Part shown: piece by piece, positions 1-18,695 of the stretch | How positions within the stretch are numbered: position 1 is the stretch's first letter | Layout: each line of letters starts with the position of its first letter | Source: Candidatus Saccharimonadota bacterium | GTDB lineage: Bacteria; Patescibacteriota; Saccharimonadia; Saccharimonadales; Saccharimonadaceae | Assembly (NCBI GenBank): GCA_027493025.1 | Contig: JAPUDQ010000038.1 | Span: 1-38,288 of the forward strand | Direction: 5' to 3' | Length of the DNA stretch: 38,288 bases | The notes under the pieces: generated by a model | Seen by the model: the letters and a program-made list of their open reading frames with translations, nothing else | Told to the model about the DNA's origin: nothing | The model's database searches: none | Position numbers and translations under genes: made by a program

Positions 1-124
1 CTACTTAACTTGCTGCGAAAGGAGCGGCAGAGGCTGAGTTAACTAGTCTTGAACCATGTTTTATTCTCCCCCTTGATAGTGCCAATAGCGACCAGGCTCT
101 ATCTCTGGCTTAGGAAGTAGTGTA
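1..124. other. no gene recognised at left edge
   Basis: I see no supported gene here. On the minus strand there is a good ribosome-binding-like purine run followed by ATG near position 56, but the frame closes after four codons (TAG), so it is not a convincing gene. This stretch lies just downstream of the stop of the TIR/deoxyribosyltransferase-like gene and may hold its 3' untranslated region or the edge of a neighbour outside the window. Confidence 0.4.
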
Positions 125-3622
<3,498 letters not shown>

Positions 3623-3623
3623 A

Positions 3624-4496
3624 TTACATTTTATCGCCCATATTACGAAGGCGAGCTACCCTATCCTCTACGGGAGGATGCGTACTAAGCATTGCCGCAA
3701 AACCACCCGATAGCGGGTTAGCAAAAAACAGATGAGCCGTTGACGGGCTTTGTCGCTGCATAGTAGAGCCGTACTGCCCAATCTTTTCTAGAGCTGTTGC
3801 CAGTCCTTCCGGATCGCGCGTCGTCATAGCGCCGGTTGCATCCGCAAGATACTCGCGCTGTCTGGAAACAGCTGCCTGAACAAACATCGCAATAAGGGGA
3901 GTAACGACTGCCGCTACAATTCCTAGGATGAGAAAAATCGGATTATTATCTTCTTCATCTCGATTACCACCGAAAAACGAAAGATTCATCAGGATATCAG
4001 CAATTAGCCCGATAGCACTCACCAGACCAAATACAATCATCATGACTCGAATGTCATAGTTTTTAACATGACCCATCTCGTGCGCCATGACTGCTTCTAG
4101 CTCTCGATCAGTCATCAGCTCCAAAATCCCACTCGTGGCCGCAACGTGCGCATGCTGGGGGTCGCGACCGGTTGCAAAGGCATTCGGTGCCGGATCATCC
4201 ATGATATATACTTTTGGCATCGGCATACCGTTTGTGATCGCCAAGTTCTCGACAATTCTATACAGGCGCGGGTTATCGCGTTTCTCAATCTCCTTAGCTC
4301 CATTCATAGCAATTGCCATCTTGGCTGCAATAAAATACTGGATAAGCGCGTAGACACAAGCACCGATCAGCGTTCCCCAGAAAATACCAATTCCAAACTG
4401 AAACGATGCCAAATAACCCAAACCAGCAATCAACAAGATAAAGATAAGGATGATCAACACCGTATTACGTTTGTTCGCGGTTATTGCACTATACAT
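3624..4496 (-). CDS. htpX: HtpX-like M48 membrane metalloprotease
   Basis: Membrane-embedded zinc protease of the M48B family that degrades misfolded membrane proteins. The zinc-binding motif HEMGH is seen in VMAHEMGHVKN near residues 138-148, with the downstream Glu ligand expected in the REYLADATGA segment near 215. Two N-terminal transmembrane helices (residues 10-55) and two more after the catalytic motif (155-210) give the usual HtpX topology, and 290 aa is a normal length. It follows lemA by 26 bases on the same strand; lemA-htpX is a common bacterial pairing. It leads into the membrane-protein gene with a two-base spacing. The family call is solid; the exact substrate set is unknown. 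Confidence 0.95.
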   Translation of the reverse strand: MYSAITANKRNTVLIILIFILLIAGLGYLASFQFGIGIFWGTLIGACVYALIQYFIAAKMAIAMNGAKEIEKRDNPRLYRIVENLAITNGMPMPKVYIMDDPAPNAFATGRDPQHAHVAATSGILELMTDRELEAVMAHEMGHVKNYDIRVMMIVFGLVSAIGLIADILMNLSFFGGNRDEEDNNPIFLILGIVAAVVTPLIAMFVQAAVSRQREYLADATGAMTTRDPEGLATALEKIGQYGSTMQRQSPSTAHLFFANPLSGGFAAMLSTHPPVEDRVARLRNMGDKM

Positions 4497-4522
4497 TTTA
4501 TCTCAGACTACGTATTAACTGA

Positions 4523-5089
4523 TTAGAACTTTACTTCGACTGGCTTTTCGATTGAAGCCATGTCTTCGACCTCGAAGAACTCACGTTTTACAAAGTTGAA
4601 CATACCGGCAATGATATTGCTCGGGAACTGCTCGATCTTTGTGTTGAGATCACGTACGCCACCATTATAAAACCGACGTGACGCTTGGATTTTGTCCTCA
4701 GTGTCGACCAGTTCGTTCTGGAGTTGCTGGAAATTCTCGCTAGCACGGAGCTGTGGATAGGCTTCCGCAACCGCAAACAGACTCTTGAGTGCACCTTCAA
4801 ACTGTGTCTCCGCCTTAGCGGTCGCAGCCGGACCTTGAGTTGTAGCGCTCAACACTGCCGCACGAGCATCTGTGACATCCTGAAAAACTTGCTTCTCATG
4901 CGCCGCATAACCCTTGACCGTCTCAATAAGATTCGGAATCAAATCAGCCCGACGTTTCAGCTGAACCGTAATATCACTCCACGCCTCTTCCACTCGCACC
5001 TTAAGACTAACTAAACTATTGTACGTCAACCACAAAAATATCAAACCCAGTACGACAACACCAAGCACGATCCATATAGCAATATTCAT
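4523..5089 (-). CDS. lemA: LemA family membrane protein
   Basis: A 188-aa protein with one N-terminal transmembrane helix (residues 3-22) and a LemA-type helical domain. It carries the hallmark segments LVSLKVRVEEAWSDITVQLKRRADLIPNLI, YPQLRASENF, and the YNGGVRDLNTKIEQFPSNIIAGMF ending (the typical YN..v..yN..i..fPs.l.a pattern). LemA proteins sit with the helix in the membrane and the domain outside or in the envelope; their precise biochemical role is not settled. First gene of the lemA-htpX-membrane protein-ligA-TIR-like run on the minus strand. Confidence 0.95.
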   Translation of the reverse strand: MNIAIWIVLGVVVLGLIFLWLTYNSLVSLKVRVEEAWSDITVQLKRRADLIPNLIETVKGYAAHEKQVFQDVTDARAAVLSATTQGPAATAKAETQFEGALKSLFAVAEAYPQLRASENFQQLQNELVDTEDKIQASRRFYNGGVRDLNTKIEQFPSNIIAGMFNFVKREFFEVEDMASIEKPVEVKF

Positions 5090-5392
5090 AGTTTTCCTTG
5101 TTTAGATTATAAGTATAGTATAGCAAAATCCTGGTAGGGTATCAAAAACTATTACTCAAGCCCCACAGATAATCTGTGATTTCATGTCCTGTGATTTTAT
5201 TATTAAGAAACAATTGATTGCAATTCATTAAAAGAACCCCAACCCGACATAACACCACTATAGGATCCGAAGGCGACTAGCAAGCGATAGCGCAGCCTTT
5301 AGGGGCGGGTGAGCCCGCCCCTTGAGAACCCGATGTCTTAGATCGGGTTCGGGTTAAAAGAAGAAATAGCGAGGCCAAAGCTAATTTCGACA
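5090..5392. other. intergenic region with two strong hairpins
   Basis: No gene is seen here. The region upstream of lemA is AT-rich to about 5240, then contains two near-perfect hairpins: GGGGCGGG/CCCGCCCC at 5302-5309 and 5314-5321 with a TGAG loop, and GAACCCGAT/ATCGGGTTC at 5326-5334 and 5342-5350. Neither is followed by a T tract, so they are only weak terminator candidates. The last bases, up to the TGGTG core at 5393, are the putative chromosomal flank of the integrated element. Confidence 0.5.
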
Positions 5393-5643
5393 TGGTGTCC
5401 TTGTACGACAAGGCTAGAACCTATTTTGAGGAAAACGGCTGAGCCGTGCAGACTCAGCCCCAACGCCTGCGGGCGCACGCGCCCGCTCGCCCCACCAGAA
5501 AAATCCCTTTGCCCTTATTTTGATATTTCCCCCGCCGAATTTCTTTTTTAGTTGAAAAGGGTGTTTTCTGGTGGTTCGGCTACTGCATAAGCAGTAGAGG
5601 CGTTGGGGCTTCGCCTAGGCGGCAGAGCCGCCGCGCTACGCGC
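5393..5643 (+). repeat. inverted repeat arm A (recombinase tail Y plus fold-back structure)
   Basis: 251 bp, by eye identical to the reverse complement of 13630-13880. It starts at the TGGTG core, encodes the tail SLYDKARTYFEENG and a TGA stop, then a nested set of inverted repeats: GGCTGAG/CTCAGCC (5437-5443/5453-5459), GCCCCAACGCC/GGCGTTGGGGC (5457-5467/5599-5609), GCGGGCG/CGCCCGC (5469-5475/5480-5486), CCACCAGAAAA/TTTTCTGGTGG (5492-5502/5564-5574) and CTACTGC/GCAGTAG (5580-5586/5591-5597). The left flank differs from that of arm B, where the upstream part X is still attached. Confidence 0.9.
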
Positions 5644-5685
5644 CCTCCCGCACAGTTATCCTCTAAAATCCGCTGCTATTGGTAT

Positions 5686-6213
5686 TTAATCAGTGTACGC
5701 GCTTCCAGGTTTAATATTATGGGTTTCTTTAAGCGCTTTCAATATTTCACCCTGATAGGCAGGCATGGTGCCATCGGGAAGACGCTCTTGTTCGCCTAAT
5801 TTCGTAAGCTCCATCCGCGCCGGATCAGCCAGACCGCGATGATCGTCGCCCACGACCAGCAGCACGAGCGAATCGTCTTCGCCTGCATATATTGCGTGAG
5901 GAACGAAGCTTTCAACCATATAACACTTTCCAGGATACAGACTGTTATCTATACCGTCGTACTTAACTACACCTAGACCTCGTAGAACAAAGAGCACATG
6001 TTGTCCAATATGTCTGTGTTCGGCTACGCCCTCATTGGCTCCGAAGCGAATAAGATCGGTTCCAAAGTTCCCATTTTTGAGAAGCGGAAGGCCAGTGCCA
6101 TCGCTATTTACCATTTGTATTGGTAATCGCTCTCCAGTTACAGAAAGATTGCCGTGCTGAAAATCTGCCCACTCAGCGCTCTGTAAAGGAGTGCCTTTAT
6201 ATTGCTCTGACAT
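5686..6213 (-). CDS. cupin-domain protein
   Basis: A 175-aa single-domain cupin. Motif 1 is seen as GVAEHRHIGQHVLFVLRGLG near residues 80-100 (HxH kept, the usual Glu replaced by Gln), and motif 2 as PGKCYMVESFVPHAIY near 115-130. Cupins bind a metal and act as isomerases, epimerases, dioxygenases or sugar/ligand binders; the reaction here is not identifiable. Start ATG 6213 has GGAGA 7 bases upstream; GTG 6216 is an alternative. It has its own promoter (TTGTAA, 17 bases, TAATAT) and is separated by about 300 bases from the next gene of the cluster, so it is probably a separate transcript. It is the first cargo gene inside putative element 1. Confidence 0.8.
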   Translation of the reverse strand: MSEQYKGTPLQSAEWADFQHGNLSVTGERLPIQMVNSDGTGLPLLKNGNFGTDLIRFGANEGVAEHRHIGQHVLFVLRGLGVVKYDGIDNSLYPGKCYMVESFVPHAIYAGEDDSLVLLVVGDDHRGLADPARMELTKLGEQERLPDGTMPAYQGEILKALKETHNIKPGSAYTD

Positions 6214-6241
6214 CACTACTTCTCCGTAAAGTATTTTCCAT

Positions 6242-6270
6242 ATATTACTATACTTTTCTCATTATTACAA
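6242..6270 (-). promoter_or_regulatory. promoter of the cupin gene
   Basis: On the minus strand a -35 box TTGTAA (6270-6265) and a -10 box TAATAT (6247-6242) are separated by 17 bases, about 30 bases upstream of the cupin start codon. Good match and spacing for a sigma-70-type promoter. Confidence 0.6.
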
Positions 6271-6511
6271 GAGCGTTTTCAGGGTAGAGTTTTTTGCTGT
6301 CGGTAAGTATTTGTAGGTAGCCTTGTTTAAAGTGCGAGACGAGACGCGGCTAAGCGAGAGGTGATGACCATGAGATCAGCGGTTCAATTCTCGAGGAGTT
6401 GGTTAGGGACAGGAAAAAATGAAATCCAAACGAGGGCCGCTATTCGACCCATCCGATACTGCTAGACTATCTTGGATTAGTCGAACTCAATCCTGCTGCT
6501 TCGTCCCTCAA

Positions 6512-7126
6512 CTAAGGAGAAAAGTTCCATCTTTGATCGAGCGATACCTCTACATTCGAGGTGTCACTCACTTCAATTCCATGGGTATTGAGGAGAGTGA
6601 GTATGTAATCGGCCTTTTCATATTCTTTGTCGCTTCTAAGGTGGTCGCGCTCGGCTATCAACGATACAACCTCATCATAGCTTATAATTTTAGGTAGTTT
6701 ACGTTTTTTTTGTGCAATTGAGAGTATCTCAGAAAATACTTCGATAATATTCTCACTCTTGCATATGCCTAGGTTCTTCCCATATTCGGTTAGCAGCTTC
6801 CAGACACCGTTCTCTTGTCGCTCAGCGTAAGATGGAACGAAGCGAAGGTTTCGTATAATGAGGTTAGTGAGTTCTTTATTTTCTTCACGATTATTAAGCA
6901 GCTGGAGTGTATCCGATAGTCTATCTCTGCGATTATTCGACAAAGAAAGTGCTTTACTAGCGATATAGGTATCTCCGAATAATACTACAAACATATCTCG
7001 GAAATTATTTAATTCTGTTATGAGGGTGGGGGTGTCTAGGCTTTCTACTGTATCGCTGGGCCAACGCAGAGAAAGCCACTGGATAAAATCACTAGGTCGT
7101 GCATCTTTAATTGGTTTAGATTTCAT
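6512..7126 (-). CDS. protein with CysRS C-terminal-like helical domain
   Basis: A 204-aa protein from ATG 7126, chosen because GGAGG stands about 12 bases upstream; longer in-frame starts run into the preceding gene. The C-terminal third contains IAERDHLRSDKEYEKADYI followed by LLNTHGIEVSDTSN, which closely follows the cysteinyl-tRNA synthetase C-terminal signature (ER..aR..KdfA.AD.iRd.L...Gi...Dt). The N-terminal two thirds are helical and I do not recognise them. No HIGH or KMSKS motif is present, so it is not an active synthetase by itself; it may bind tRNA or partner the ProRS-like protein encoded five bases upstream. Third gene of the HPr-kinase-like/ProRS-like operon. Assignment of the C-terminal domain is moderately sure and the role is unknown. 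Confidence 0.6.
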   Translation of the reverse strand: MKSKPIKDARPSDFIQWLSLRWPSDTVESLDTPTLITELNNFRDMFVVLFGDTYIASKALSLSNNRRDRLSDTLQLLNNREENKELTNLIIRNLRFVPSYAERQENGVWKLLTEYGKNLGICKSENIIEVFSEILSIAQKKRKLPKIISYDEVVSLIAERDHLRSDKEYEKADYILTLLNTHGIEVSDTSNVEVSLDQRWNFSP

Positions 7127-7131
7127 ATAAA

Positions 7132-8649
7132 TTACACCCTCCTCCCAATAAAGCCAAAAGTATTGCACATCTTTTCGCATGCGAGGCACGGCCTGCTCTC
7201 TTCTGATAGCGTAAGCTGGCTGCCAAGATACTCGCCACCTGAGATATTTTGAACAGTATCAATACATTCGTGAGAGCTATGCACATATATCTGCGCACAG
7301 GCTGGGTGTATGTTTTTTAAGGCATCTACCGAATCGATAGAGGCGGTATTATTGCGTCGTCTTTGTGATTGTTCTTCGACAAGAACGGCATCTCCTCTTA
7401 AAAGCAACGGAGTGAAGTCTGCGTCAACGCCTACTGTTTCTATAGATAATGTACGTCGGTCTAGAACTTCAAGAATACCTTTTCCTGCTAACTCCGAATC
7501 AACATATGCGATTAAGGGTGTGCCGGCTGTGATTAGTTGTCGAGAGACACCCTCTTCTTCATGCTCGTAGTAGACTGCAACGCGTATGTTTTGTGCAGTA
7601 ATAGAGGCAACGAGCGTTTCCGCCGCCTCGACCGTTTTTGCTCTGTTATCTCGAGCAACAACCGCAATTTGTATTGGTGCGAGTTTTTCGGGGATGCGTA
7701 GCCCAAGTGGATCAGCATGTATAAATAAAGTAGTATACAGTGTTCGCTCGGTCATTCCGTAGGTAACTTGATAAGTATAGTCCTTTGAGTCTTTAGATTT
7801 AACATTGAATGGGCGTGAGAAGACTTGGCCTTGTTTATATGCTAAGAGTGTCTGTATCGTTTTTCCATTAGGAAGCAATGTGTCATATGCGACCGTCTCT
7901 TCGCTAACTGGTTTATTGAAGCTGATCGGGCGCGATACCACGTATGCATCCATACATAGTGCGCTTGCAACGCTTTCGCATAGCTTGACAGACCTAGCGA
8001 ACTCTTTATTCATGGCTACTCTATTTTTGAAAAAACCATGTGCTTCAAGCATTAAGGCTGAATCCATGGGACGAAGATAAGGATGTGGCGCTGATTTATA
8101 TCGATAATATGGACCAGTTTGGAATATTCGTAAGGGTAATTTGCATTCTTCGTTGCGTAGCCACGAAGCAACAACGGGGTAAATGATAGCTTCACCGGTA
8201 GGCTTTAATACTGCCTTGGTACTGCCCCTTGATACCAAAAACGCGTTCCCCGTAAAATCGTAGATATTGTCTGCGAGAATGTCGAAGTTTTCGGGCGAGA
8301 CGAGTCCCGGGAAGACGTATTCTTCATATCCAAGCTTAAGCACCTCCTGCTTAAATGTATTGACAAGATGATTCATGAATTTTGTTCCACTCGGTAGCCA
8401 TATCGTTGATCCGTAATTGGTGTTTGTAGTGTCGGCGAACCCTGTAGTTCTTAAAAGGGAGAGAAGCGCTTGGATATCACCGTCGACAACCGCACGATAC
8501 GGTGTATCCGCTAGGAGCTGTAAAAGTTCAGAAAGAGGCCTTGCGAGTTCGAAGTTTTGTGTATTTCGCAGCTCAAGGATACGCCCATAGATATACTGCC
8601 TTGTGAGCGCAAGATGATCATCATTTTGACTAGAAACAGATCGACTCAC
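7132..8649 (-). CDS. prolyl-tRNA-synthetase-like protein (archaeal-type, altered active site)
   Basis: 505 aa, close to archaeal-type ProRS length. Class II features: motif 1 region EYVFPGLVSPENFD, LKPTGEAIIYPVVASWLR (canonical RPTSE..iYP..s.WiR), motif 2 region FQTGPYYRYKSAPHPYLRP (canonical FRyE..h.RpliR, here Glu to Lys), LEAHGFF (canonical wqEgHtaH, Trp and second His lost), the ProRS-specific YGMTERTLYTTLFIHAD followed by PLGLRIPEKLAPIQIAVV, an anticodon-binding-like domain, and a C-terminal Cys cluster (CLACEKMC). The scaffold is clearly ProRS, but substrate-pocket residues differ, suggesting a paralogue with changed amino acid or acceptor. It starts 3 bases after the HPr-kinase-like gene. 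Alternatives: a divergent true ProRS, or a small-molecule/peptide aminoacylating enzyme. Confidence 0.8.
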   Translation of the reverse strand: MSRSVSSQNDDHLALTRQYIYGRILELRNTQNFELARPLSELLQLLADTPYRAVVDGDIQALLSLLRTTGFADTTNTNYGSTIWLPSGTKFMNHLVNTFKQEVLKLGYEEYVFPGLVSPENFDILADNIYDFTGNAFLVSRGSTKAVLKPTGEAIIYPVVASWLRNEECKLPLRIFQTGPYYRYKSAPHPYLRPMDSALMLEAHGFFKNRVAMNKEFARSVKLCESVASALCMDAYVVSRPISFNKPVSEETVAYDTLLPNGKTIQTLLAYKQGQVFSRPFNVKSKDSKDYTYQVTYGMTERTLYTTLFIHADPLGLRIPEKLAPIQIAVVARDNRAKTVEAAETLVASITAQNIRVAVYYEHEEEGVSRQLITAGTPLIAYVDSELAGKGILEVLDRRTLSIETVGVDADFTPLLLRGDAVLVEEQSQRRRNNTASIDSVDALKNIHPACAQIYVHSSHECIDTVQNISGGEYLGSQLTLSEESRPCLACEKMCNTFGFIGRRV

Positions 8650-8652
8650 TAA

Positions 8653-9606
8653 TTACCTCTTATCGAGCCATTGAGTTATATCGCCATACTGTCCACCAAC
8701 AATACTTTTTTCTTTAGCATGATTCAGTAAATATGTAATTGTTTTTGTGCGATTTTGGGTATCGCCAGAAAAGAGAACAGAGGGAATGATATCATTATTC
8801 AGAATCACAGGACTAGCGATTTTTTCACTTGAGACTTGCTGGAGACATCGAAGGACAAAATCAGAATCTTCAATAGCAGCACCATCCTTAAACCGCTCAT
8901 CGCCAAACTTCATGAGCGCGATGGTGAAATTATTCCCTAGCTGGACCTGGGGTTCCTTGAATTGGTATTGCGTAAGATCTGCGAGCGACTTGCTACCAAT
9001 GGGCTCTACCATCTTTCTATCTTCGAATAGTGTTGCCTTGGGAAGTGCGTTCTTTATAAAATCGAGAGCTTGCGGCGTAATATTGTCGTATGCATTTCCC
9101 ATATACAATTGTCCGTCGCTGCTAACAAGCACATGTTCGGTTGCAATGAGTTTCCATCCCTTGCTTAATGCGTTTGATACGAGAACGCTTTTGCCTGAGC
9201 CGCTTCCACCAATGCCTATGACAACGTGTTTTGTTGTGGGGTGAATAATGGCGCATGCATGTAAAACTGAGATGCCATGTTTTTCGAGCTCACTAAGGAT
9301 GAGGTGGTTTACGATGCCCTTGTTGCCAAACAGGCCGAATTGCTTATTGAATTGTGGGTTAGTCTGCGCGGAATAGTCACCCGATACGATGATTTCTTCC
9401 TTGACTCTTGTTGCAGACGATTCGTCTATAGTGTCGCATACTTTGAGTTGTACGGTATGCTTGAGTTTATCTTCAGCGTATTCCTGAATATAAAAGCTTG
9501 TATTTAGGTTGTAGGGTTGTGGATCGAACAGGTCTTTTGTATCTAATGCCATATCACTAAGAACAGTAATATTTAAAGTAGCTACTGAAAACTGAAGGCT
9601 ATTCAT
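8653..9606 (-). CDS. HPr kinase/phosphorylase-like P-loop protein
   Basis: 317 aa. The P-loop IGIGGSGSGKSVLVSNAL lies at about residues 131-148 in the arrangement of the HprK C-terminal domain (G.SG.GKS....L...G..l...D), with GWKLIATEHVLVSSDG following, where HprK normally has Asp-Asp. The preceding 125 residues lack an obvious family. No PTS genes are in the window, so a role in HPr regulation is unlikely. HprK-like kinases are also known as tailoring enzymes of ribosomal peptides, including ones that phosphorylate a C-terminal serine of lasso precursors, and as free-serine kinases. First gene of the operon with the ProRS-like and CysRS-C-like genes (3- and 5-base spacings). Substrate unknown. 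Confidence 0.65.
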   Translation of the reverse strand: MNSLQFSVATLNITVLSDMALDTKDLFDPQPYNLNTSFYIQEYAEDKLKHTVQLKVCDTIDESSATRVKEEIIVSGDYSAQTNPQFNKQFGLFGNKGIVNHLILSELEKHGISVLHACAIIHPTTKHVVIGIGGSGSGKSVLVSNALSKGWKLIATEHVLVSSDGQLYMGNAYDNITPQALDFIKNALPKATLFEDRKMVEPIGSKSLADLTQYQFKEPQVQLGNNFTIALMKFGDERFKDGAAIEDSDFVLRCLQQVSSEKIASPVILNNDIIPSVLFSGDTQNRTKTITYLLNHAKEKSIVGGQYGDITQWLDKR

Positions 9607-9723
9607 TTGTAAATCTCACTTTAACTTTCTATAGAAATATTATACAATATATTAAATTAAAACGACAGACTTACGTACTTAGCTTATCACACTATTAGAT
9701 CTCGAGGAAAGGAAACGACACAA
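9607..9723. promoter_or_regulatory. AT-rich divergent promoter region
   Basis: The 117-base gap between the two divergent cargo transcripts. On the minus strand a perfect TATAAT lies at 9644-9639, about 33 bases upstream of the HPr-kinase-like start; a -35 is not clear. On the plus strand TACAAT (9643-9648) overlaps it, with TTAACT 16 bases upstream, which would drive the dehydrogenase gene. Overlapping -10 elements imply the two directions compete or are co-regulated. The dehydrogenase start at 9724 has an AAGGA-type site about 10 bases upstream. Confidence 0.55.
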
Positions 9724-10710
9724 ATGAGTATAAAGCCGTACCAAACCATTGAAGTTAGGAGAGACGACTTAAAGCACGAGAGTGCGAGAGCACTCGAAAA
9801 GAGCTTGGCGATTTCAAGTGAGTCTGCCAGTGAAATTATTAATCAGTTCGAATACGCAGAACTATCTGGAAAAAGAACACATGGCTTTGTCCGTGTTCCA
9901 TGGCTTATTAGCCAAGAGCTTGGTGGTGACGAGCCTATTGTATTTGAGCGCAGAGGTTCGGATACTGATCGAATATCTCACATCGACTGCACGCGATCAA
10001 TTGGATATTTGGCACTTAATCAAATAACTGACTTCGTACGAGATCGGGCGGAGCAGTACGGCATGCATACAGCAATAATACATAATGCCTTTCCGACGAA
10101 CACACTAGGCTACTACATGCGCAATTTAACGGCAGCAAATGGATCTACGGGCATCTTACTTGGTTCAACACCAAAACTATCCTCTGCTCCTCGTGATCAA
10201 AAAAGAATTATAGGAACAAATCCACTCGCAATTGGTGTTCATGATGCGAATACTCAGTTAATTACAGATATAACGGGGGCACCTAGTTCGTTCGGGGAGG
10301 TCTTGGTAGCAAAGTATTGGGGTGAGTTGCAGCTCGAGCACTACCGAACGTCAACAGGGGGTCGGCCTCGATCAATCGATGATCTATTCGAAGACGGTGA
10401 GTTTACTGGATATATTGAGCAAAAGGATGATCAAAAAGGTGATCGCAAGGTGTATGCGATTTCTCTGGCGTTACAGGCGATGCTATCAACACTTGCAGGT
10501 GATCGCAAGGGTCGCGGGAATATGGTCATGATTGCTATTAATGCACAGACACAGGAGGGCAACTACTTGGCACCTGAACTTATAGAAGGTCTAAAAAACG
10601 AACAGCTACCAGGCGTCATGAGTCACGATCGATATAACAAAGCACTCGAAACTCCCTCTATAGTCATTCCAGAAAAATTATGGAATGACATATGTACTAC
10701 TGCGCGGTAG
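9724..10710 (+). CDS. malate/L-lactate dehydrogenase (Ldh_2) family oxidoreductase
   Basis: 328 aa. Family features of the Ldh_2/YlbC group: an N-terminal helical domain with ELSGKRTHGFVRVPWLI (canonical d..G..sHG..r.p.y), the central HNAFPTNTLGYYMRNLTAANGSTGILLGSTP segment, RIIGTNPLAIGVHD (canonical GTNP...g.P) and a D..TGA..F segment. The family reduces 2-oxo acids or cyclic imines with NAD(P)H; members include malate, lactate, sulfolactate, ureidoglycolate and piperideine/pyrroline-2-carboxylate reductases. The last activity makes proline or pipecolate, of interest next to a ProRS-like gene, but the link is inference. Divergently transcribed from the kinase-like operon. Slightly shorter than typical (about 340-360 aa). 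Confidence 0.8.
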   Translation: MSIKPYQTIEVRRDDLKHESARALEKSLAISSESASEIINQFEYAELSGKRTHGFVRVPWLISQELGGDEPIVFERRGSDTDRISHIDCTRSIGYLALNQITDFVRDRAEQYGMHTAIIHNAFPTNTLGYYMRNLTAANGSTGILLGSTPKLSSAPRDQKRIIGTNPLAIGVHDANTQLITDITGAPSSFGEVLVAKYWGELQLEHYRTSTGGRPRSIDDLFEDGEFTGYIEQKDDQKGDRKVYAISLALQAMLSTLAGDRKGRGNMVMIAINAQTQEGNYLAPELIEGLKNEQLPGVMSHDRYNKALETPSIVIPEKLWNDICTTAR

Positions 10711-10718
10711 GGCGTAAA

Positions 10719-10748
10719 TGGACATTTATGGGGGTAATTTGATATAAT
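10719..10748 (+). promoter_or_regulatory. leuS promoter, leaderless type
   Basis: TGGACA (10719-10724), an 18-base spacer and a perfect TATAAT (10743-10748). The leuS ATG begins only 11 bases after the -10 box, leaving a leader of about five bases and no room for a Shine-Dalgarno site, so the transcript is probably leaderless or nearly so. Confidence 0.7.
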
Positions 10749-10759
10749 ACCGATTATCC

Positions 10760-13183
10760 ATGAAATCTTACGATCCCAGTAGAATTGAACAGAAATGGCG
10801 GCGGATTTGGGTTGACGATAAGCGCTATGAGACAACCGAAAACTCAGACAAGCCAAAATATTACATCACGAACATGTTCCCATATCCATCGGGAGCGGGT
10901 ATGCACGTCGGTCACATCTTTGAGTATGCAATCATTGATGCGACGACTCGGTTTTTTCGAACTCAAAACTACAATGTTATGTATCCAATGGGATTCGATA
11001 ATTTTGGTCTTCCAGCTGAGAACTATGCGATAAAAACCGGCGTTTCTCCGCAAGAGAGTATTAAAGCGAATATCGCTAAATTCAAGCATCAGCTCGATAA
11101 AGTTGGAGTAAGTATCGACTGGTCTCGTGAAGTCCAAACCTCCAATCCAGAATATTATCGCTGGACACAGTGGATTTTCACCAAATTCTTCGAGCGGGGC
11201 TTGGTCTATCAAAAAGAAAGCTTGCAGTGGTGGTGTCCGGTTGATAAGACCGTGCTTGCCAACGAGCAGGTAGAAGCGGGCAAATGTTGGCGCTGTGGCA
11301 CTGAAGTTGTGAAAAAGTCGATGAAGCAGTGGTTTTTCAAGATTACTGAATATGCCGATGCACTGCTTGAGGGGCTCGATGACCTCGACTGGCCAGAAAA
11401 AATCAAGACGGCGCAGCGTAACTGGATTGGCAAATCGGTCGGTGCAGAGATTGATTACAAGCTTGCCGATAACGACGAAATTATTACGGTCTTCTCGACC
11501 CGTCCTGATACGATCTTTGGCGCGACGTCCCTTGTCCTTGCGCCCGAACATCCACTCGCTCGCTCGCTCGCTGTCGGTGATCACGCCGAATTTACATATC
11601 AGTATATCGATGAAGCGGTCAAAAAATCAGAAATCGAACGCACCAATGATACGAAAGAAAAAACAGGCGTCTTCACGGGTAGCTACGCTGTCAATCCTGC
11701 GACAGGCGAAAACGTGCCAATCTGGGTCGCCGATTACGTGCTCGGTGGCTACGGCACCGGTGCGGTGATGGCGGTGCCGGCGCACGACGAGCGCGACTAT
11801 GCATTTGCGGAGAAATACGATTTGCCGATTGTCGAAGTCGTTGAAAAACCTGAAAATAACCCAGATGCGGGCGTGTACCGCGGCGAGGGCTTTCTCGTGA
11901 ATTCAGGAGTATACGACGGCATGGAATCGAGTGACGCGCGTGAGGAAATTGTGGCCTGGCTCGAACAGCAAGGTCTTGGACGAGCCAAAACGACATACAA
12001 AATGCGCGACTGGCTCATCAGCCGCCAGCGCTACTGGGGTGCGCCGATTCCGATTGCCTACGACAAAGACGGCAACGCGCACGCCATCCCCGAAGACCAG
12101 CTCCCTGTTATGCTGCCAGAGGTTGAAAATTACGAACCAGACGGTAGCGGTAAGGGCGTACTAGCGCGTGACAAAGACTTTGCCAAGGTCGTCATCAACG
12201 GCGAGGAGATGACGCGTGAAACTGACACGATGGACGGCTACGCTTGCAGCAGCTGGTATCTGCTGCGTTACACCGACCCGCACAATGCCGAGCAAGCGTG
12301 GGATCCTGAGAAGGCTAGCTACTGGTCGCCTGTTGATATGTATATCGGCGGTGATCACGCCGTCGCACATTTGCTATACGTGCGGTTTTGGAACCGAGTA
12401 TTCTTCGATATGGGGCTCGTACCAGAGCCAGAGCCAGTCAAAAAGCTGGTGTATCACGGTCTGATCCAAGCCGAAGACGGCACCAAGATGAGCAAAAGCA
12501 AGGGCAATGTCGTCGATCCGATCGACGTGATTGATCAGGGTTACGGCGCTGATGCACTGCGGACGTTTGAGCTTTTCCTCGGTCCGATTAACGAAAATTC
12601 TAGCTGGAACAGCCGCGGTATCGCTGGTGTCTATCGCTTCCTCAATCGCGTCTGGACATTGACGCAGGAGTATCTCGAGAGCCAAAAAGTGGAGGGCGAG
12701 TCGAAAGCGTTGCAAACGCTCACGCACCAAACGATCAAAAAAGTTACTGATGACTATCGTCGCTTGAGCTTCAATACTGCTATCGCTGCGCTAATGGAAT
12801 ACGTCAATGAACTCTATAAGCTCAAGACTGACGGTTTCAGTGAGCAGTGGCAAGAAGTCCTCGAGACACTGGTCAAGTTAATCCAGCCGACCGCGCCACA
12901 TATGGCCGCAGAACTCTGGAGTCAGCTTGGCCACGACAGTCAGCTCGATTTTGAGCCGTGGCCAAATTGGGACGAAGCGCTCCTTGTGACAGAAACCATC
13001 AAGCTCGTTGTGCAGGTCAACGGTAAGGTTCGTGCGACGGTTGAAATTGACAAAAATGCCTCAGAAGAAGAGGTGAAGGCACTCGCGTTGGCGCAAGAAA
13101 ACGTCCAAAAATTCCTTGAAAACAAAGAGCCGACCAAGGTGCTATATATCCCTGGTCGCCTCGTCAGCATCGTTGTGAAGTAA
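10760..13183 (+). CDS. leuS: leucyl-tRNA synthetase
   Basis: 807 aa, full length for a bacterial LeuRS. HIGH-type motif PYPSGAGMHVGH at about residues 41-52, zinc-binding-like CPVDKTVLANEQVEAGKCWRCG around 157-178, the CP1 editing domain with STRPDTIFGAT (about 245) and GTGAVMAVPAHDERD (about 333-347), KMSKSKGNVVDP at about 575-586, an anticodon-binding domain and the C-terminal VQVNGKVRATVEI domain. It charges tRNA-Leu with leucine in the cytosol. It has its own strong promoter and follows the dehydrogenase by 49 bases. Its base composition looks higher in GC than the cargo to the left. It lies inside the inferred boundaries of element 1, which is odd for an essential gene. Family identity is certain. 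Confidence 0.98.
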   Translation: MKSYDPSRIEQKWRRIWVDDKRYETTENSDKPKYYITNMFPYPSGAGMHVGHIFEYAIIDATTRFFRTQNYNVMYPMGFDNFGLPAENYAIKTGVSPQESIKANIAKFKHQLDKVGVSIDWSREVQTSNPEYYRWTQWIFTKFFERGLVYQKESLQWWCPVDKTVLANEQVEAGKCWRCGTEVVKKSMKQWFFKITEYADALLEGLDDLDWPEKIKTAQRNWIGKSVGAEIDYKLADNDEIITVFSTRPDTIFGATSLVLAPEHPLARSLAVGDHAEFTYQYIDEAVKKSEIERTNDTKEKTGVFTGSYAVNPATGENVPIWVADYVLGGYGTGAVMAVPAHDERDYAFAEKYDLPIVEVVEKPENNPDAGVYRGEGFLVNSGVYDGMESSDAREEIVAWLEQQGLGRAKTTYKMRDWLISRQRYWGAPIPIAYDKDGNAHAIPEDQLPVMLPEVENYEPDGSGKGVLARDKDFAKVVINGEEMTRETDTMDGYACSSWYLLRYTDPHNAEQAWDPEKASYWSPVDMYIGGDHAVAHLLYVRFWNRVFFDMGLVPEPEPVKKLVYHGLIQAEDGTKMSKSKGNVVDPIDVIDQGYGADALRTFELFLGPINENSSWNSRGIAGVYRFLNRVWTLTQEYLESQKVEGESKALQTLTHQTIKKVTDDYRRLSFNTAIAALMEYVNELYKLKTDGFSEQWQEVLETLVKLIQPTAPHMAAELWSQLGHDSQLDFEPWPNWDEALLVTETIKLVVQVNGKVRATVEIDKNASEEEVKALALAQENVQKFLENKEPTKVLYIPGRLVSIVVK

Positions 13184-13345
13184 ATAGCAAGATATTTGCC
13201 ACAAATCCCTTGCAGCAACCGGAGGCTTGCTATACTTACAGTAAGTAACTACGATACTGTAAGCAGTATGAGTGTGTTTTGTAGGGCAACCATTTGAGAT
13301 TGTTAATAACTGTAAAGATATGAGGGTACTTTGAAATGCTCAATG
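13184..13345. other. convergent intergenic region with inverted repeat
   Basis: Between the convergent leuS and 64-aa peptide genes. It contains an interrupted inverted repeat around 13232-13270: ATAC plus TTACAGTA on the left and TACTGTAA plus GTAT on the right, separated by about 11 bases. It could be an operator or a bidirectional transcription end; there is no clean T tract. No gene is seen. Confidence 0.35.
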
Positions 13346-13540
13346 CTAGCTATGAAAATCTCCATATGTATTTGGGCCAAACGCACTAACGCGTATCGGA
13401 CCGTAGTCGGGCAAGTTCTCAGATTCGTTAGCTACTTGACCTGTATTAATTCGCGAATCCTCTGGCGCGCTATCAACAGAAAGCGCAATATCTTTGACTT
13501 CCTCAGTCTCCAGATGAGTTTGTTGATTTAATTGCTCCAT
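13346..13540 (-). CDS. 64-aa peptide, possible precursor peptide
   Basis: A small gene supported by signals rather than homology: AGGAG about 10 bases before ATG 13540 and a strong promoter TTGATC, 17 bases, TATAAA just upstream. The N-terminal 45 residues are acidic and rich in Glu, Asp, Gln and Asn (a leader-like composition); the C-terminal 20 residues switch to Gly, Pro, Tyr, Phe and Ser (LPDYGPIRVSAFGPNTYGDF then His-Ser). It ends in serine. No signal peptide, transmembrane segment or cysteine. The two-part composition and its place in a cluster with an HPr-kinase-like enzyme suggest a modified-peptide precursor; this is inference, and it may equally be an unrelated small regulator. Confidence 0.6.
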   Translation of the reverse strand: MEQLNQQTHLETEEVKDIALSVDSAPEDSRINTGQVANESENLPDYGPIRVSAFGPNTYGDFHS

Positions 13541-13577
13541 CTCGCAACCTCTCCTTGTCCATTAACTAATGTAGCTA

Positions 13578-13606
13578 TTTATATCATACATACGTGGTAA
13601 GATCAA
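13578..13606 (-). promoter_or_regulatory. promoter of the 64-aa peptide gene
   Basis: On the minus strand TTGATC (13606-13601), a 17-base spacer and TATAAA (13583-13578). Strong sigma-70-type match, about 38 bases before the start codon, with a good ribosome-binding site between. Confidence 0.65.
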
Positions 13607-13629
13607 GTTTTGCGTTTCTACTTGCAGAC

Positions 13630-13880
13630 GCGCGTAGCGCGGCGGCTCTGCCGCCTAGGCGAAGCCCCAACGCCTCTACTGCTTATGCAGTAGCCGAACC
13701 ACCAGAAAACACCCTTTTCAACTAAAAAAGAAATTCGGCGGGGGAAATATCAAAATAAGGGCAAAGGGATTTTTCTGGTGGGGCGAGCGGGCGCGTGCGC
13801 CCGCAGGCGTTGGGGCTGAGTCTGCACGGCTCAGCCGTTTTCCTCAAAATAGGTTCTAGCCTTGTCGTACAAGGACACCA
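13630..13880 (-). repeat. inverted repeat arm B
   Basis: Reverse complement of arm A (5393-5643) over 251 bp. Beyond the shared core (CACCA at 13876-13880) this copy continues into X, the inverted copy of the recombinase 1 3' end, so together they make an intact X-Y junction that reads LPSLVSLYDKARTYFEENG on the minus strand. Confidence 0.9.
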
Positions 13881-14010
13881 AAGACGGTAAAAAATTGAAT
13901 TGGTCGCCCGAATGGGCGGCTTTTTCTTTAGTTTTGCGGAGCAAAAACCAAATGTTCTCAGGGGGGAGAAAAGAACTTTGGGCAGCCGTAGGCTGCGCCT
14001 GTTTGGTTTT
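13876..14010 (-). repeat. 135-bp inverted repeat X, left copy
   Basis: Reverse complement of 15567-15701, no mismatch seen by eye. It reads as the C-terminal 45 codons of recombinase 1 on the minus strand but lacks a start. Identity stops abruptly at 14010. Confidence 0.9.
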
Positions 14011-14032
14011 AGCCGCCATTGGCGGTTTTTGG

Positions 14033-14038
14033 TATAAT
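14033..14038 (+). promoter_or_regulatory. extended -10 promoter of recombinase 1
   Basis: TGGTATAAT at 14030-14038 is an extended -10 element, placed so that transcription would start near 14045, the first base of stem 1 of the leader structure. A GCCGCC-ATT-GGCGGT hairpin lies where the -35 would be. The same arrangement, TGGTAAAAT, is found before recombinase 2. Confidence 0.6.
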
Positions 14039-14044
14039 ACAAAT

Positions 14045-14159
14045 GCACACAAGTTTTGAGAAGGCTATTTTTGTTGGCTTAAATGGCCGTCTAGTACAAT
14101 CTAGTCTTTTCTAGCTTGTGTGCAACTAGGCGGTCATTTAAGTTTTAGGGGGTAACACT
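14045..14159 (+). ncRNA. predicted pseudoknot leader of recombinase 1 mRNA
   Basis: Two interleaved inverted repeats. Stem 1 pairs GCACACAAG (14045-14053) with CTTGTGTGC (14115-14123). Stem 2 pairs a 17-mer at 14078-14094 (CTTAAATGGCCGTCTAG) with 14126-14142 (CTAGGCGGTCATTTAAG), with two G-U-type mismatches. Because stem 2 opens before stem 1 closes, the fold is an H-type pseudoknot. The 3' strand of stem 2 ends just before the AGGGGG ribosome-binding site and the ATG at 14160. The leader of recombinase 2 keeps both pairings although stem 1 has an unrelated sequence, which supports selection on structure. Likely role: control of recombinase translation. Confidence 0.7.
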
Positions 14160-15719
14160 ATGCAAAGCCAACAAAAATACTTTATCTATGCTCGTAAGAG
14201 TACAGATGTTGAGGACAAACAGGTTTTGTCCATTGAGGCGCAACTCGTAGAGTTGCGAGCATACGCCAAAAATGAAAACTTGCAGATAGTGGACGAGTTG
14301 GTTGAAAAACAGTCAGCCAAAACACCCGGACGCAAGATTTTTGGCGATATGCTCAAACGCATTGAAAACGGCGAAGCAAACGGCATTATTGCGTGGCATC
14401 CCGACAGGCTGGCTAGAAATAGCGTGGACGGCGGACAAATTGTATATTTACTCGACCAAACGCATGTGCAAGCTCTGAAGTTCCCGACCTTTTGGTTTGA
14501 GAACACATCACAAGGTAAGTTCATGCTCTCAATAGCGTTTGGTCAGTCAAAATACTATGTAGACAATTTGTCTGAAAACACCAAGCGTGGGTTGCGCCAA
14601 AAAGTCAGGCGTGGTGAGTTTCCAGGCAATGCGCCTGTTGGCTACATAAATGATGTGAGGACAAAAACTATTGTTGTAGACAAACGGCGTGCGCCGTTTG
14701 TGGTTGAGGCATTTGAGTTGTACGCCAAAGGCGATCAAAAGTTGCAGAACATCGCCGACTTTTTGGCAACCAAAGGCATAACAACATCAGGTGGCTTGCC
14801 CTTAAAGAAAGACCAGATTAAATATATGCTCACCAACCCCTTTTATTATGGTCATTTCCGTTACTGTTGCGAGATATATGAGGGCAGGCACACCCCGATT
14901 GTTGAAAAGAAACTATTTGACACTGTTCAGGCTGTTGCCGAGCAGCGAGGACATAGACAAAAAGGCACGACTGCGCCACAGATATTCTGTGGGCTTTTGC
15001 GTTGTGCAACGTGTGGGCTATCCATCACTGCCGAAAAGAAAGTTAAGCACCAGAATAATGGCAATGTTCACGAATATATCTACTATCGCTGCACACGCAA
15101 GCACAAAACCATTAAATGCACCGAACCAGCCGTAACTGAACCAGATTTAGCGGCGCAGTTGTCGGACATCTTGCAGGGCTACGCCCTGCCTGAAAGTTGG
15201 GCGACAGAGTTAGAGAAAATGCTTGCAGAGGACGAACGCAAACTAGAACAAACATCTGGCGTGTTTGTGGCAAGCGCACAAACTAGACTTGCAAACTTAC
15301 AAAGCAAGTTACAGCGACTTTTAGATAGTTATCTTGACCAAGATATTGACCAGCAAACCTATCGCAATAAACAAGCCGAACTAATGTCCGAGAAAAAGTC
15401 GCTGAACGAGCAAGTCAGTAAGCATACGCTTGCCGCCAATGTTTGGGTTGAACCTATGAGGAACTGGCTAAAAACAGCAGTTTCACTCTGTGAAACTGCC
15501 AAGAGTGGAAGTTTTGCGGAGATTAAACAAGCCTTGGTACAAATTGACGGATTGAACCTGTTTCTAAAAACCAAACAGGCGCAGCCTACGGCTGCCCAAA
15601 GTTCTTTTCTCCCCCCTGAGAACATTTGGTTTTTGCTCCGCAAAACTAAAGAAAAAGCCGCCCATTCGGGCGACCAATTCAATTTTTTACCGTCTTTGGT
15701 GCGCGGGGCGGGACTTTGA
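14160..15719 (+). CDS. large serine recombinase 1 (3' end replaced by att site)
   Basis: 519 aa. N-terminal resolvase domain with the nucleophile serine at residue 14 (YFIYARKS), WHPDRLARN near 78-86, then a recombinase domain (about 160-260), a zinc-ribbon-like segment (RCATCGLS, then C..KHKTIKC, about 280-325) and a coiled-coil region (about 345-430). It performs site-specific strand exchange at short att sites. ATG 14160 has AGGGGG 7 bases upstream. The last five codons (RGAGL, stop TGA) come from a tRNA-Leu 3' end remnant; before integration the tail would have been SLYDKARTYFEENG, still present at 5398 and, inverted, before 13876. Close relative of recombinase 2. Confidence 0.95.
   Translation: MQSQQKYFIYARKSTDVEDKQVLSIEAQLVELRAYAKNENLQIVDELVEKQSAKTPGRKIFGDMLKRIENGEANGIIAWHPDRLARNSVDGGQIVYLLDQTHVQALKFPTFWFENTSQGKFMLSIAFGQSKYYVDNLSENTKRGLRQKVRRGEFPGNAPVGYINDVRTKTIVVDKRRAPFVVEAFELYAKGDQKLQNIADFLATKGITTSGGLPLKKDQIKYMLTNPFYYGHFRYCCEIYEGRHTPIVEKKLFDTVQAVAEQRGHRQKGTTAPQIFCGLLRCATCGLSITAEKKVKHQNNGNVHEYIYYRCTRKHKTIKCTEPAVTEPDLAAQLSDILQGYALPESWATELEKMLAEDERKLEQTSGVFVASAQTRLANLQSKLQRLLDSYLDQDIDQQTYRNKQAELMSEKKSLNEQVSKHTLAANVWVEPMRNWLKTAVSLCETAKSGSFAEIKQALVQIDGLNLFLKTKQAQPTAAQSSFLPPENIWFLLRKTKEKAAHSGDQFNFLPSLVRGAGL
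15567..15701 (+). repeat. 135-bp inverted repeat X, right copy
   Basis: The 3' end of the recombinase 1 gene, repeated in inverse orientation at 13876-14010, ending at the TGGTG core. Includes the KTKQAQPTAAQSSF coding segment. Confidence 0.9.
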
Positions 15720-15723
15720 CTCA
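15695..15723 (+). repeat. direct repeat of tRNA-Leu 3' end (att site), left copy
   Basis: 29 bp identical to 18413-18441. The segment from TTGGTGCGCGGGGCGGG onward matches the 3' end of the intact tRNA-Leu at 18610. This copy overlaps the last codons and stop of recombinase 1 and bounds the restriction-modification cassette. Confidence 0.9.
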
Positions 15724-15729: not shown

Positions 15730-16314
15730 TTAATCTCTACCCAGTAACTTCATCAAACGATTAGTCGCTGCTTCGTCTTTTGCTATTTCAATACTTAAAT
15801 TAGAGTTGATGACATTTAGCCTTTTGAGTTCGGCATCGTTGATAGGCATCTTCGATTCAATCAGCCTGCGAATAAGTGAAGTTAGCGGCTCGCCAATAGC
15901 CTGTTTAAAGTTAAACCCAATGAGCTGCATGACTGTAATCGTTTCTTTGGACAAAACGGCTTTAATTATATCGAGATTTTCCTGATTTTTGGCACGTTCC
16001 GTTTCGTCCTCTGTTTTTTCGATAAACTTCTCTGTCAACGGTATGAGCGTAGTAGTAATATATTCTATATCTTCATCCGATATCTTCTGTGAAACAAGTT
16101 CTTGTTCGTATGCCTGCGCAATACGGACAAGCTCATTTTTATCGTCCAGTAGATTATTGACGATGTCTTCAAGTTCTCGAATTGTCTGCTTATCATCGCG
16201 CTTTGCTTTGATGCTGGATATTTTGTCCGAAATTGCCCCAGCAGTGTTGCGTACTGCTGATTCTGTTAATTTCACCCCCAGTTCTGCTAGTAGCTTTGTG
16301 TTTGCTTCGTCCAT
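15730..16314 (-). CDS. coiled-coil protein of the RM cassette, unknown function
   Basis: 194 aa with no family that I recognise. A long helical, charged region (about residues 30-125; DKQTIRELEDIVNNLLDDKNE and later EKFIEKTEDETERAKNQEN) looks coiled-coil; no transmembrane segment. Its ATG overlaps the endonuclease stop by one base (TAATG), so it is translated with the endonuclease and is likely part of the system: a specificity, control or immunity accessory. It is the last gene of the cassette, ending a few bases from the att repeat. Confidence 0.7.
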   Translation of the reverse strand: MDEANTKLLAELGVKLTESAVRNTAGAISDKISSIKAKRDDKQTIRELEDIVNNLLDDKNELVRIAQAYEQELVSQKISDEDIEYITTTLIPLTEKFIEKTEDETERAKNQENLDIIKAVLSKETITVMQLIGFNFKQAIGEPLTSLIRRLIESKMPINDAELKRLNVINSNLSIEIAKDEAATNRLMKLLGRD

Positions 16315-17300
16315 TATTTCTCCGCTCCCTTGTAAGGTCCCATAAACTTATCGCCATTGAAATGAATCAAGTGAGTTGGATTATCGGCAATCCAAACTTC
16401 TGTTTCCCACGCAATATCTTTTACCCAAGTGCGAAAAATGGTTCTATCAAGAAAAGCCGTTATGTACACAATATCCGCTTTGCAATTCTTGGTCAGCTTC
16501 TTCAACTCAAGGAGACGATTTTCTGATATTGGCCCAGATGAGTGGACTGCTTCTATGAGATAAAGCCAGTTTTTACTTTGCGAATAAGCGACAACATCGG
16601 GTAGTTCGCCGTGGTCGAGTTTGAAAAAGCCAAGTTCATCAAGTCTCTCTTGTGCCAAATGTAAGTATTTATCTGCCGTGTCGCCGATATATAATACTTC
16701 CGCACTATACCCATAAATCGGCAAAAACTCTTCGACTATGGCTTTCTGTAAAACATTATGCTCGCCATTTGAGAACTCTAGTGTTTTACCCTCGATAGTT
16801 ATAGGGATTCTGACTATATCGCGAGTACGATCGAGTAAGTCCGTTACGGAACCATGCGTATCAACAAACTTTTCTACTTCATGCGCCCAACTAGCTGTTC
16901 CATAACTCTGAAAAAGTGGCGCAGCCGAGTGATTTAGTGCGTACCCTCGCGTTGAATCATTGCGAGCGAGATTTTCGTTTGTTCTCATAACTATTGAGCC
17001 TAAAATCAATTGTTTGAGGTCTTTACGGCGAATATCATCGTATGAGCCAGATGAGATATCTTCTCCAAAATGAGAGTTCATGAAGTTGATAATATCTCTC
17101 GTTTTCATAACTATGCCGTCATCTATTGTTTTTGGGTGGTTAACTTTGCTCGTGGAGTCAATATTTGCTGTCGCAAGCAAAGCCATCTCTACGCGCTCAC
17201 TTCTTCGAGGAGTTAGATCTTGTATGGGAAAGCCTATCACGGTCAGTATCTCGGTTGCGATCTCTATCAGTTTTTTAGTTTTCTTTGTCTTCCTGCTCAT
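16314..17300 (-). CDS. BsuBI/PstI-type restriction endonuclease
   Basis: 328 aa. Resembles the BsuBI/PstI family: an N-terminal helical part (IVMKTRDIINFMNSHFGEDISSGSYDDIRRKDL), and a C-terminal catalytic region with YIGDTADKYLH, GELPDVVAYSQSKNWLYLIEAVHSSG and RLLELKKL, which hold the acidic and lysine residues expected of a PD-(D/E)xK-like nuclease. It would cut unmodified DNA; CTGCAG is the site of the founding members, but specificity here is unknown. It overlaps the upstream C5 methyltransferase stop by four bases. The founding members pair with an N6-adenine methyltransferase, so pairing with a C5 enzyme is noteworthy. Confidence 0.85.
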   Translation of the reverse strand: MSRKTKKTKKLIEIATEILTVIGFPIQDLTPRRSERVEMALLATANIDSTSKVNHPKTIDDGIVMKTRDIINFMNSHFGEDISSGSYDDIRRKDLKQLILGSIVMRTNENLARNDSTRGYALNHSAAPLFQSYGTASWAHEVEKFVDTHGSVTDLLDRTRDIVRIPITIEGKTLEFSNGEHNVLQKAIVEEFLPIYGYSAEVLYIGDTADKYLHLAQERLDELGFFKLDHGELPDVVAYSQSKNWLYLIEAVHSSGPISENRLLELKKLTKNCKADIVYITAFLDRTIFRTWVKDIAWETEVWIADNPTHLIHFNGDKFMGPYKGAEK

Positions 17301-18331: not shown

Positions 18332-18412
18332 TTTACCATGATTTACTCCTGCTTTACTTCGTAAACGCCACCGAGTTGCTAAAGCGACAGCGCACCCGAC
18401 CAAAAAGCGATT

Positions 18413-18441
18413 TTTGGTGCGCGGGGCGGGACTTTGACTCA
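18413..18441 (+). repeat. direct repeat of tRNA-Leu 3' end (att site), right copy
   Basis: 29 bp identical to 15695-15723. It matches the tRNA-Leu 3' end for about 20 bases but is not itself part of a tRNA. Marks the right boundary of the restriction-modification cassette. Confidence 0.9.
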
Positions 18442-18609: not shown

Positions 18610-18695
18610 TGGTGCGCGGGGCGGGACTTGAACCCGCACGCTTTATGGGCAAGAGATTTTAAGTCTCTCGTGTCTACCGATTCCACCACCCGCGC
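18610..18695 (-). tRNA. tRNA-Leu(TAA)
   Basis: 86 nt. Acceptor stem GCGCGGG/CCCGCGC, anticodon stem AGAGA/TCTCT with loop CTTAAAA (anticodon TAA), a long variable arm as expected for tRNA-Leu, T-arm with GGTTCAAGTCCC, and an encoded CCA. Its 3' end is the source of the att repeats at 15695 and 18413 and the likely original integration target of element 1 and the RM cassette. Confidence 0.97.

Follow-up and report, generated by a model that had tools for sequence, protein, structure and literature searches.

Second copies of aminoacyl-tRNA synthetases can act as self-resistance genes, as the leucyl-tRNA synthetase (LeuRS) AgnB2 does for agrocin 84 (PMC5059758, in the accessible part of the paper) and further copies of SerRS, IleRS, and TrpRS do in other cases (PMC9437257, in the accessible part). 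A different kind of duplication is the ProRSx of Streptomyces, a prolyl-tRNA synthetase (ProRS) that occurs with tRNA-ProA and alongside the housekeeping enzyme (PMC9437257, same part). In lasso precursor peptides, which otherwise have little sequence in common, the C-terminal Ser is the residue that homologues of HPr kinase (HprK) phosphorylate (PMC8498205, in the accessible part). We analyzed a 38,288-nucleotide (nt) stretch of DNA (the window), the whole of contig C38 (JAPUDQ010000038.1) in a genome of Candidatus Saccharimonadota (GCA_027493025.1; 909,652 bases, 45 contigs, 98% complete), and found in it an integrated element that carries a ProRS-like paralogue, an HprK-like protein, a protein with a CysRS-like tail, an Ldh_2-family oxidoreductase, a cupin, a second LeuRS, and a gene for a 64-amino-acid (aa) acidic peptide (Table 1). 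The explanation that we tentatively favor, as a possibility and not a probability, is that the element bears a compact self-protected cluster making a small modified peptide, with the LeuRS as its immunity determinant.

Since att junctions stand at both ends and the site is empty in the relative G081, the cluster is the cargo of an integrated element of ~10.3 kb (~5393 to 15701) at the 3' end of a tRNA-Leu, as the preliminary description had supposed in calling it mobile cargo. With the repeats read as att halves, the left junction (5393) is B|P' and the right (~15701) is P|B', with the core TGGTG. P is the recombinase gene's own 3' end, which is present as 135-nt inverted copies at 13876-14010 and 15567-15701, and B' matches the 3' end of tRNA-Leu, of which a 29-nt copy lies at 18413-18441, near the intact tRNA-Leu(TAA). 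In G081, lemA is 73 bases from tRNA-Leu(TAA), which is followed by tRNA-Cys, and this is the order of the window minus a 13.5-kb insert; the empty site was readable in this one relative, the contig of the other candidate (G303) ending there. Like other tRNA-targeting serine-recombinase elements, this one is inserted at a tRNA 3' end and has att halves at both ends, but it differs from them in having a further att copy, inverted, next to the recombinase and in that synthetase cargo is found in two elements of one genome. A restriction-modification module is a further insert at the same tRNA-Leu. The recombinase is 69% identical to that at 35636-37222, and in viral contigs its kin gave N-terminal matches only, without useful cargo. 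Each of the two recombinases is flanked by perfect inverted copies of its 3' end of 135 to 138 nt (13876-15701 and 35675-37508), so the segment could invert or pick between two att sites.

The genome holds two LeuRS, both far over the family cut-off, the other copy being on contig C10 (TIGR00396, 990.6 bits). LeuRS matches were found in 39 of 41 genomes, with two separate loci in the window genome only; the two-row cases elsewhere among the 41 were halves of one gene, on a single contig or across contig ends. In the family (295 genomes), 287 had a LeuRS match, and only the window genome and G694 showed three rows among the matches listed. The gene leuS lies beside what we take, by similarity, to be nusB, nudix, and rnc in 16 of 19 relative regions and in two further ones. 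The C10 LeuRS stands at this native place, but the tree groups it with G304, G195, and G015 (support, 100/100), outside the family's own clade, in which the cargo LeuRS falls (support, 100/98). The element may thus have captured a native-type gene while a foreign one replaced it, or it may have come from a close relative. A promoter scan gave the cargo LeuRS a promoter-like site of its own (TGGACA-18-TATAAT). The C10 LeuRS (region L131, 7789-10710) carries a NUDIX-like insert, recognized by eye.

A second element of the same type, with an att arm 80% identical, lies on contig C12, where inverted repeats of 170 nt (99.4% identical) at 291-460 and 5238-5407 (region L194, positions 1 to 9000 of the contig) enclose a ValRS (765 aa; 872.8 bits versus a cut-off of 704), a histidine phosphatase, a YgjV-type membrane protein, and an APH-like (kinase-like) protein below cut-off. 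No recombinase was found within the contig, and that of the element would lie beyond its end. The other ValRS, on contig C19 (906.1 bits), is 36% identical to the C12 copy and has neighbors that are presumably core genes. A second class I synthetase is thus present in both readable cargo slots of this element type, although two is a small number. Duplicates of essential genes are rare in genomes this small, but here LeuRS and ValRS are both present twice, and one copy of each lies in an element of this type. Should the additional copies serve as immunity genes, they would be a direct pointer to antibiotic-like weapons or shields in a group from which few products have been described. The agrocin 84 cluster likewise has a second LeuRS on mobile DNA near unusual enzyme genes (PMC5059758, accessible part), but the window LeuRS carries no recognized resistance mark; the comparison covers LeuRS alone among the agrocin genes.

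Among the cargo genes, those of the tail protein, the ProRS-like protein, and the HprK-like protein form an operon in that order, with gaps of 5 bases (7127-7131) and 3 bases (8650-8652); the positions and tight spacings given earlier for these genes hold, as do the Ldh_2 and cupin labels, both proteins scoring above their Pfam cut-offs. The tail protein starts at the ATG at 7126, preceded by a GGAGGAGGG-type Shine-Dalgarno motif, and not at the longer open reading frame (ORF) start at 7189. The unit extends as far as the recombinase (15719), taking in the second LeuRS and the small peptide gene. GC content at third codon positions (GC3) was 0.36 to 0.41 in the cargo except for the LeuRS (0.58), the genome mean being 0.43 (standard deviation, 0.056; 49 ORFs). 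Foreign base composition was dropped as a mark of the cluster, whose values lie inside the genome range with the LeuRS as the outlier. A possible tRNA remnant seen by eye at ~6360-6420 was matched by neither Rfam nor ARAGORN.

The ProRS-like protein is a true paralogue that stands beside a canonical family II ProRS of the same genome. Its best family was the family I ProRS of NCBIfam (TIGR00408; E, 5e-46), with a score below the curated cut-off (157.6 versus 437 bits). A PF00587 search found five class II synthetases in the genome, and the genome's own ProRS, on contig C14, is a family II enzyme of 411 aa (TIGR00409, 406.1 versus 306.7 bits), with neighbors that we take to resemble greA, lysS, and a CAAX protease gene. 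In a 37-row tree the terminal branch of the ProRS-like protein was ~10 changes per site long, versus a median of 0.35, and its placement is therefore unsure. The protein is thus neither the sole ProRS of the genome nor one lying inside canonical ProRS, in keeping with the preliminary description of an aberrant paralogue. A similar proS neighborhood (CAAX protease, greA, and lysS by eye; L004, L007, L009, L010, and L013) holds a family I ProRS in several genomes of the order and family II in the window genome, which suggests in-place replacement of the gene.

Relatives of the ProRS-like protein were distant throughout. In the order (294 genomes), 73 genomes, its own included, had any match at E of 0.001, and seven others matched at 1.2e-19 or better, each with 24 to 29% identity; in the phylum (379 genomes), 64 genomes, its own included, matched at 1e-15, the best at 1.9e-27, with identity of no more than 31%. 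The proteins checked among these matches were canonical ProRS in both length and sequence. No relative closer than ~31% was found in the order and phylum genomes, the GTDB contigs, or the viral contigs, where contig scans demand exact 8-residue stretches and hence miss distant kin. The phage and plasmid search gave distant ProRS-type matches only (20 to 27%).

Aligned with 33 canonical proteins of family I (34 rows in all), to which its identity was 18 to 22% (mostly 19 to 22%), the ProRS-like protein kept T151 and E153 of the TXE loop, invariant in the alignment, the class II motif 2 Arg (R183) and motif 3 Arg (R302), invariant across the 34 rows, and E202, H204 (the E-x-H pair), and Q266. 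Replaced were the near-invariant motif 2 Glu (K185 here), the proline-pocket Trp, the TSH loop, the GFKFNEWE stretch of the anticodon domain, and the C-terminal signature. Functional roles of these residues and loops, including TXE as a proline loop, are known from ProRS structures. The structural model (predicted local distance difference test [pLDDT], 71.6; residues 1-57 poor), built with nine viral-contig relatives, aligned over residues 57-505 to archaeal ProRS 1nj1 (Z, 33.8; root mean square deviation, 3.0 Å; 435 residues); it leans on an alignment of true ProRS and so speaks for compatibility with the fold and is no independent proof of it. A PDB sequence search placed archaeal ProRS first (E, 1.6e-33), and a viral-library fold search put canonical synthetases on top. 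The modeled protein is thus compatible with the whole ProRS fold, with several activation residues kept and others lost. Compared with archaeal-type family I ProRS, it shares the fold over 57-505 and several substrate and ATP residues but has ~20% identity, lacks the motif 2 Glu, TSH loop, and anticodon signature, carries an extra N-terminal stretch, and is not the cell's only ProRS. The suggestion, made by eye, that this extension is CysRS-tail-like was dropped, residues 1-80 matching no Pfam family.

The other enzyme labels stood to differing extents. For the HprK-like protein, the earlier label holds only weakly: a match to TIGR04352 (E, 3e-5; residues 110-192, with a GGSGSGKS P-loop inside) has a score far under the HprK-related kinase A cut-off (23.2 versus 200 bits), and no Pfam family was found in the protein. 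No relatives were found beyond its own genome in 61 relatives, 378 other phylum genomes, plasmids, and viral contigs. For the tail protein, described earlier as like the CysRS C terminus, weak similarity is confined to the last ~54 of 204 residues, below cut-off for Pfam CysS_C (E, 0.1 for the whole and 0.015 for the C-terminal piece; 13.2 and 15.8 versus 23 bits), while the first 134 residues had no convincing match. It matched NCBIfam CysRS at E of 4.6e-5 and the genome's own CysRS at 31% over 42 residues (E, 0.005). The label is tentative because XerC/XerD models fit the same stretch not much worse; the plasmid search found no relatives. Ldh_2 occurs in 20 of 379 phylum genomes; ranked by best score per genome, the window copy comes last. 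Set against 18 others (19 loci tried, one without a BLAST match dropped), it keeps the T-N-P stretch and D182 and alters several otherwise conserved positions, and it is a genuine but divergent family member. Cupin kin 37 to 44% identical are present on Pseudonocardia and Gloeobacter plasmids, the former adjoining an adenylate-forming enzyme and a polyketide synthase; none were found in GTDB contigs.

The 64-aa ORF, between the LeuRS and the inner att copy, is judged from its sequence to be a convincing gene. Of the 32 intergenic ORFs of 30 to 110 aa in the window, it alone combines an ATG or GTG start with a Shine-Dalgarno motif (AAGGAGAGG, seven bases before the ATG). Its codon score of 0.190 per codon is on the level of real genes (gene-piece mean, 0.154) and was reached by 1 of 126 false ORFs. 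A promoter-like TTGATC-17-TATAAA, read by eye, was absent from the promoter-scan list. The peptide has 12 acidic and 3 basic residues, the acidic ones mostly in the first 45, and a tail rich in Gly, Pro, Asn, Ser, Tyr, and Phe that ends in Ser. Leader-core precursors have such a layout.

These observations are consistent with the following scheme for a self-protected peptide cluster. The 64-aa protein would be the precursor, and the HprK-like protein may phosphorylate it, plausibly at the C-terminal Ser. The ProRS-derived enzyme would activate proline, or an amino or imino acid resembling it, as an adenylate, the building block being made or tailored by the Ldh_2 protein and the cupin. It would attach this acid to the peptide or a small molecule, and the tail protein would perhaps aid tRNA or peptide binding. 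The extra LeuRS would be a resistant copy that shields the cell, because the product or an adenylate-like breakdown form would hit LeuRS. Support comes from the presence of all parts in one element that is absent at the G081 site, the two LeuRS, the codon use and translation signals of the peptide gene, the compatibility of the ProRS-like protein with the ProRS fold together with the residues it keeps, and the second element, with its ValRS, phosphatase, and kinase-like genes. What speaks most for the scheme is that the genes form one physical unit, that LeuRS is duplicated, that a precursor-like gene is present, and that HprK homologues offer a precedent. If the scheme is true, a ProRS paralogue and a kinase acting on a peptide would be a new use of the synthetase fold. 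The preliminary description had proposed either a natural-product or a tRNA-derived modification pathway; the former is plausible and is strengthened by the peptide gene and the duplicated LeuRS, while tRNA modification has no direct support, no odd tRNA being present among those examined. In agreement with its statement that no pathway with this gene set is described, we found none. No open-licence paper was found that joins HPr kinase, prolyl-tRNA synthetase, and gene cluster or that links synthetase homologues with precursors of ribosomally synthesized and post-translationally modified peptides, and the accessible parts of the phosmidosine and agrocin literature contain no ProRS-like biosynthesis gene.

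Several points weigh against a self-protected peptide cluster. The scheme is weakest in that its enzyme assignments are remote, that it has no second example, and that a transporter and a peptidase are missing: the whole cluster was found nowhere else in what was searched, and none of the element's scanned proteins, the other small ORFs being unscanned, was recognized as a leader peptidase, a transporter, or a lasso cyclase. The HprK-like assignment is weak and the single-sequence structure model of the protein poor (pLDDT, 39); the C-terminal Ser is one residue only. No families or relatives of the peptide were found in the searches made, which left out other genomes, and an alternative role for it would be that of a recombination factor or a regulator. 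The cargo LeuRS departs at 7 conserved columns (range in the other rows, 0 to 41) with no clear resistance signature, it is of the normal family lineage, the copy in the native position being the odd one, and its GC3, unlike that of the other cargo, allows for a separate history. A lasso peptide cluster was considered as well, the locus sharing with lasso and HprK-related kinases the HprK-type P-loop region and a candidate substrate with a terminal Ser (PMC8498205, accessible part), here a candidate precursor near the HprK-like gene. The kinase-like protein is, however, far under the family cut-off and no lasso processing genes were recognized, and this idea was therefore dropped, no peptidase or cyclase family being found among the scanned cluster proteins.

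As a rather unlikely alternative, such elements could ferry spare LeuRS and ValRS genes as a resistance cassette against synthetase inhibitors of neighbors or hosts, with the ProRS-like operon as separate cargo. This would agree with the two elements of the same architecture, each with a second class I synthetase, with the LeuRS having its own promoter-like site and a differing GC3, and with acquired synthetases known to give resistance (PMC9437257, accessible part), but it leaves the ProRS paralogue, the kinase, Ldh_2, the cupin, and the peptide gene in the slot unexplained, and no resistance residues were identified in the cargo LeuRS. More generally, and unlikely in our estimate, tRNA 3'-end recombinase elements of ultra-small bacteria might be a family that trades duplicated LeuRS and ValRS genes, which would serve miniature clusters as their immunity genes. 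In the cluster seen here, the ligase derived from ProRS and the HprK-like kinase would turn a ribosomal peptide into a synthetase poison; such ligase-plus-kinase chemistry was not found in the open-licence literature searched. Less probable still is a defence or toxin-type module in which the ProRS-like, kinase, and tail proteins act on tRNA or translation upon infection. Gabija, a HerA-like ATPase, and restriction-modification genes share the window, and islands of this kind typically contain genes that are rare, divergent, and mobile, but the five cluster proteins matched no PADLOC family, their family scans found no toxin or nuclease family, and the metabolic Ldh_2 and cupin fit poorly.

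Alternative charging, in which the ProRS-like enzyme would load a tRNA with proline or an analogue as ProRSx does, is doubtful. That precedent (PMC9437257, accessible part) also shows a duplicated ProRS beside a housekeeping one, but here no dedicated tRNA was found, the operon is another one, and paralogue and housekeeping enzyme come from different ProRS families. Rfam gave no match in 5050-10860, and tRNA-Pro was limited to TGG and GGG, with no odd tRNA among the 31 of 33 genome tRNAs that were named, two being left unnamed; in addition, GFKFNEWE, the TSH loop, and the C-terminal signature are lost and the motif 2 Glu is a Lys. Equally doubtful is a regulatory or degenerate paralogue serving as a noncatalytic ligand sensor or scaffold like HisZ (PMC9437257, accessible part). 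The low identity (19 to 22% to most of the 33 rows; lowest, 18%), the long branch, and the lost motif 2 Glu speak for it; against it are the retained TXE, motif 2 and 3 Arg, and E-x-H pair, and a long, uninterrupted reading frame whose codon score is positive.

Table 1. Features of the element and its target in the window
Feature	Position	Strand	Remarks
Left element end, B|P' att junction and P' arm	5393-5643	+	251 nt, perfect inverted copy at 13630-13880
Cupin, 176 aa	5686-6216	-	Apart from operon; Pfam Cupin_2, 34.4 bits vs cut-off 27.2
Tail protein, 204 aa	6512-7126	-	C-terminal ~54 residues weakly CysRS C-terminal-domain-like
ProRS-like paralogue, 505 aa	7132-8649	-	GTG start; ~57-residue N-terminal extension
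HPr-kinase-like P-loop protein, 317 aa	8653-9606	-	TIGR04352, below cut-off
Divergent Ldh_2-family oxidoreductase, 328 aa	9724-10710	+	Pfam Ldh_2, 68.3 bits vs cut-off 38.8
Second complete LeuRS, 807 aa	10760-13183	+	TIGR00396, 1012.7 bits vs cut-off 548.4
64-aa acidic peptide gene, candidate precursor	13346-13540	-	Ends in Ser; codon score, Shine-Dalgarno, promoter-like site
Inverted copy of complete att site (P' then P)	13630-14010		Upstream of recombinase
Large serine recombinase	14160-15719	+	ORF; gene 3' end is P arm of att site
Right element end, P|B' junction	15695-15723		B' is tRNA-Leu 3'-end fragment, 29 nt identical at 18413-18441
Target tRNA-Leu (TAA), intact	18610-18695	-	

The same island holds further modules outside the element. 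A type II restriction-modification system lies at 16314-18442, Gabija (GajA and GajB) at 27272-31209, and a HerA-like ATPase adjoining a 437-aa partner at 31338-34637. At 24438-26151, tRNA-Gly(GCC) has another serine recombinase inserted at its 3' end, with the ends of the recombinase gene and the tRNA fused. At 37571-38288, the contig ends after the third recombinase's P' arm, and an ORF, presumably DUF1801-like, is the only visible part of that cargo slot.

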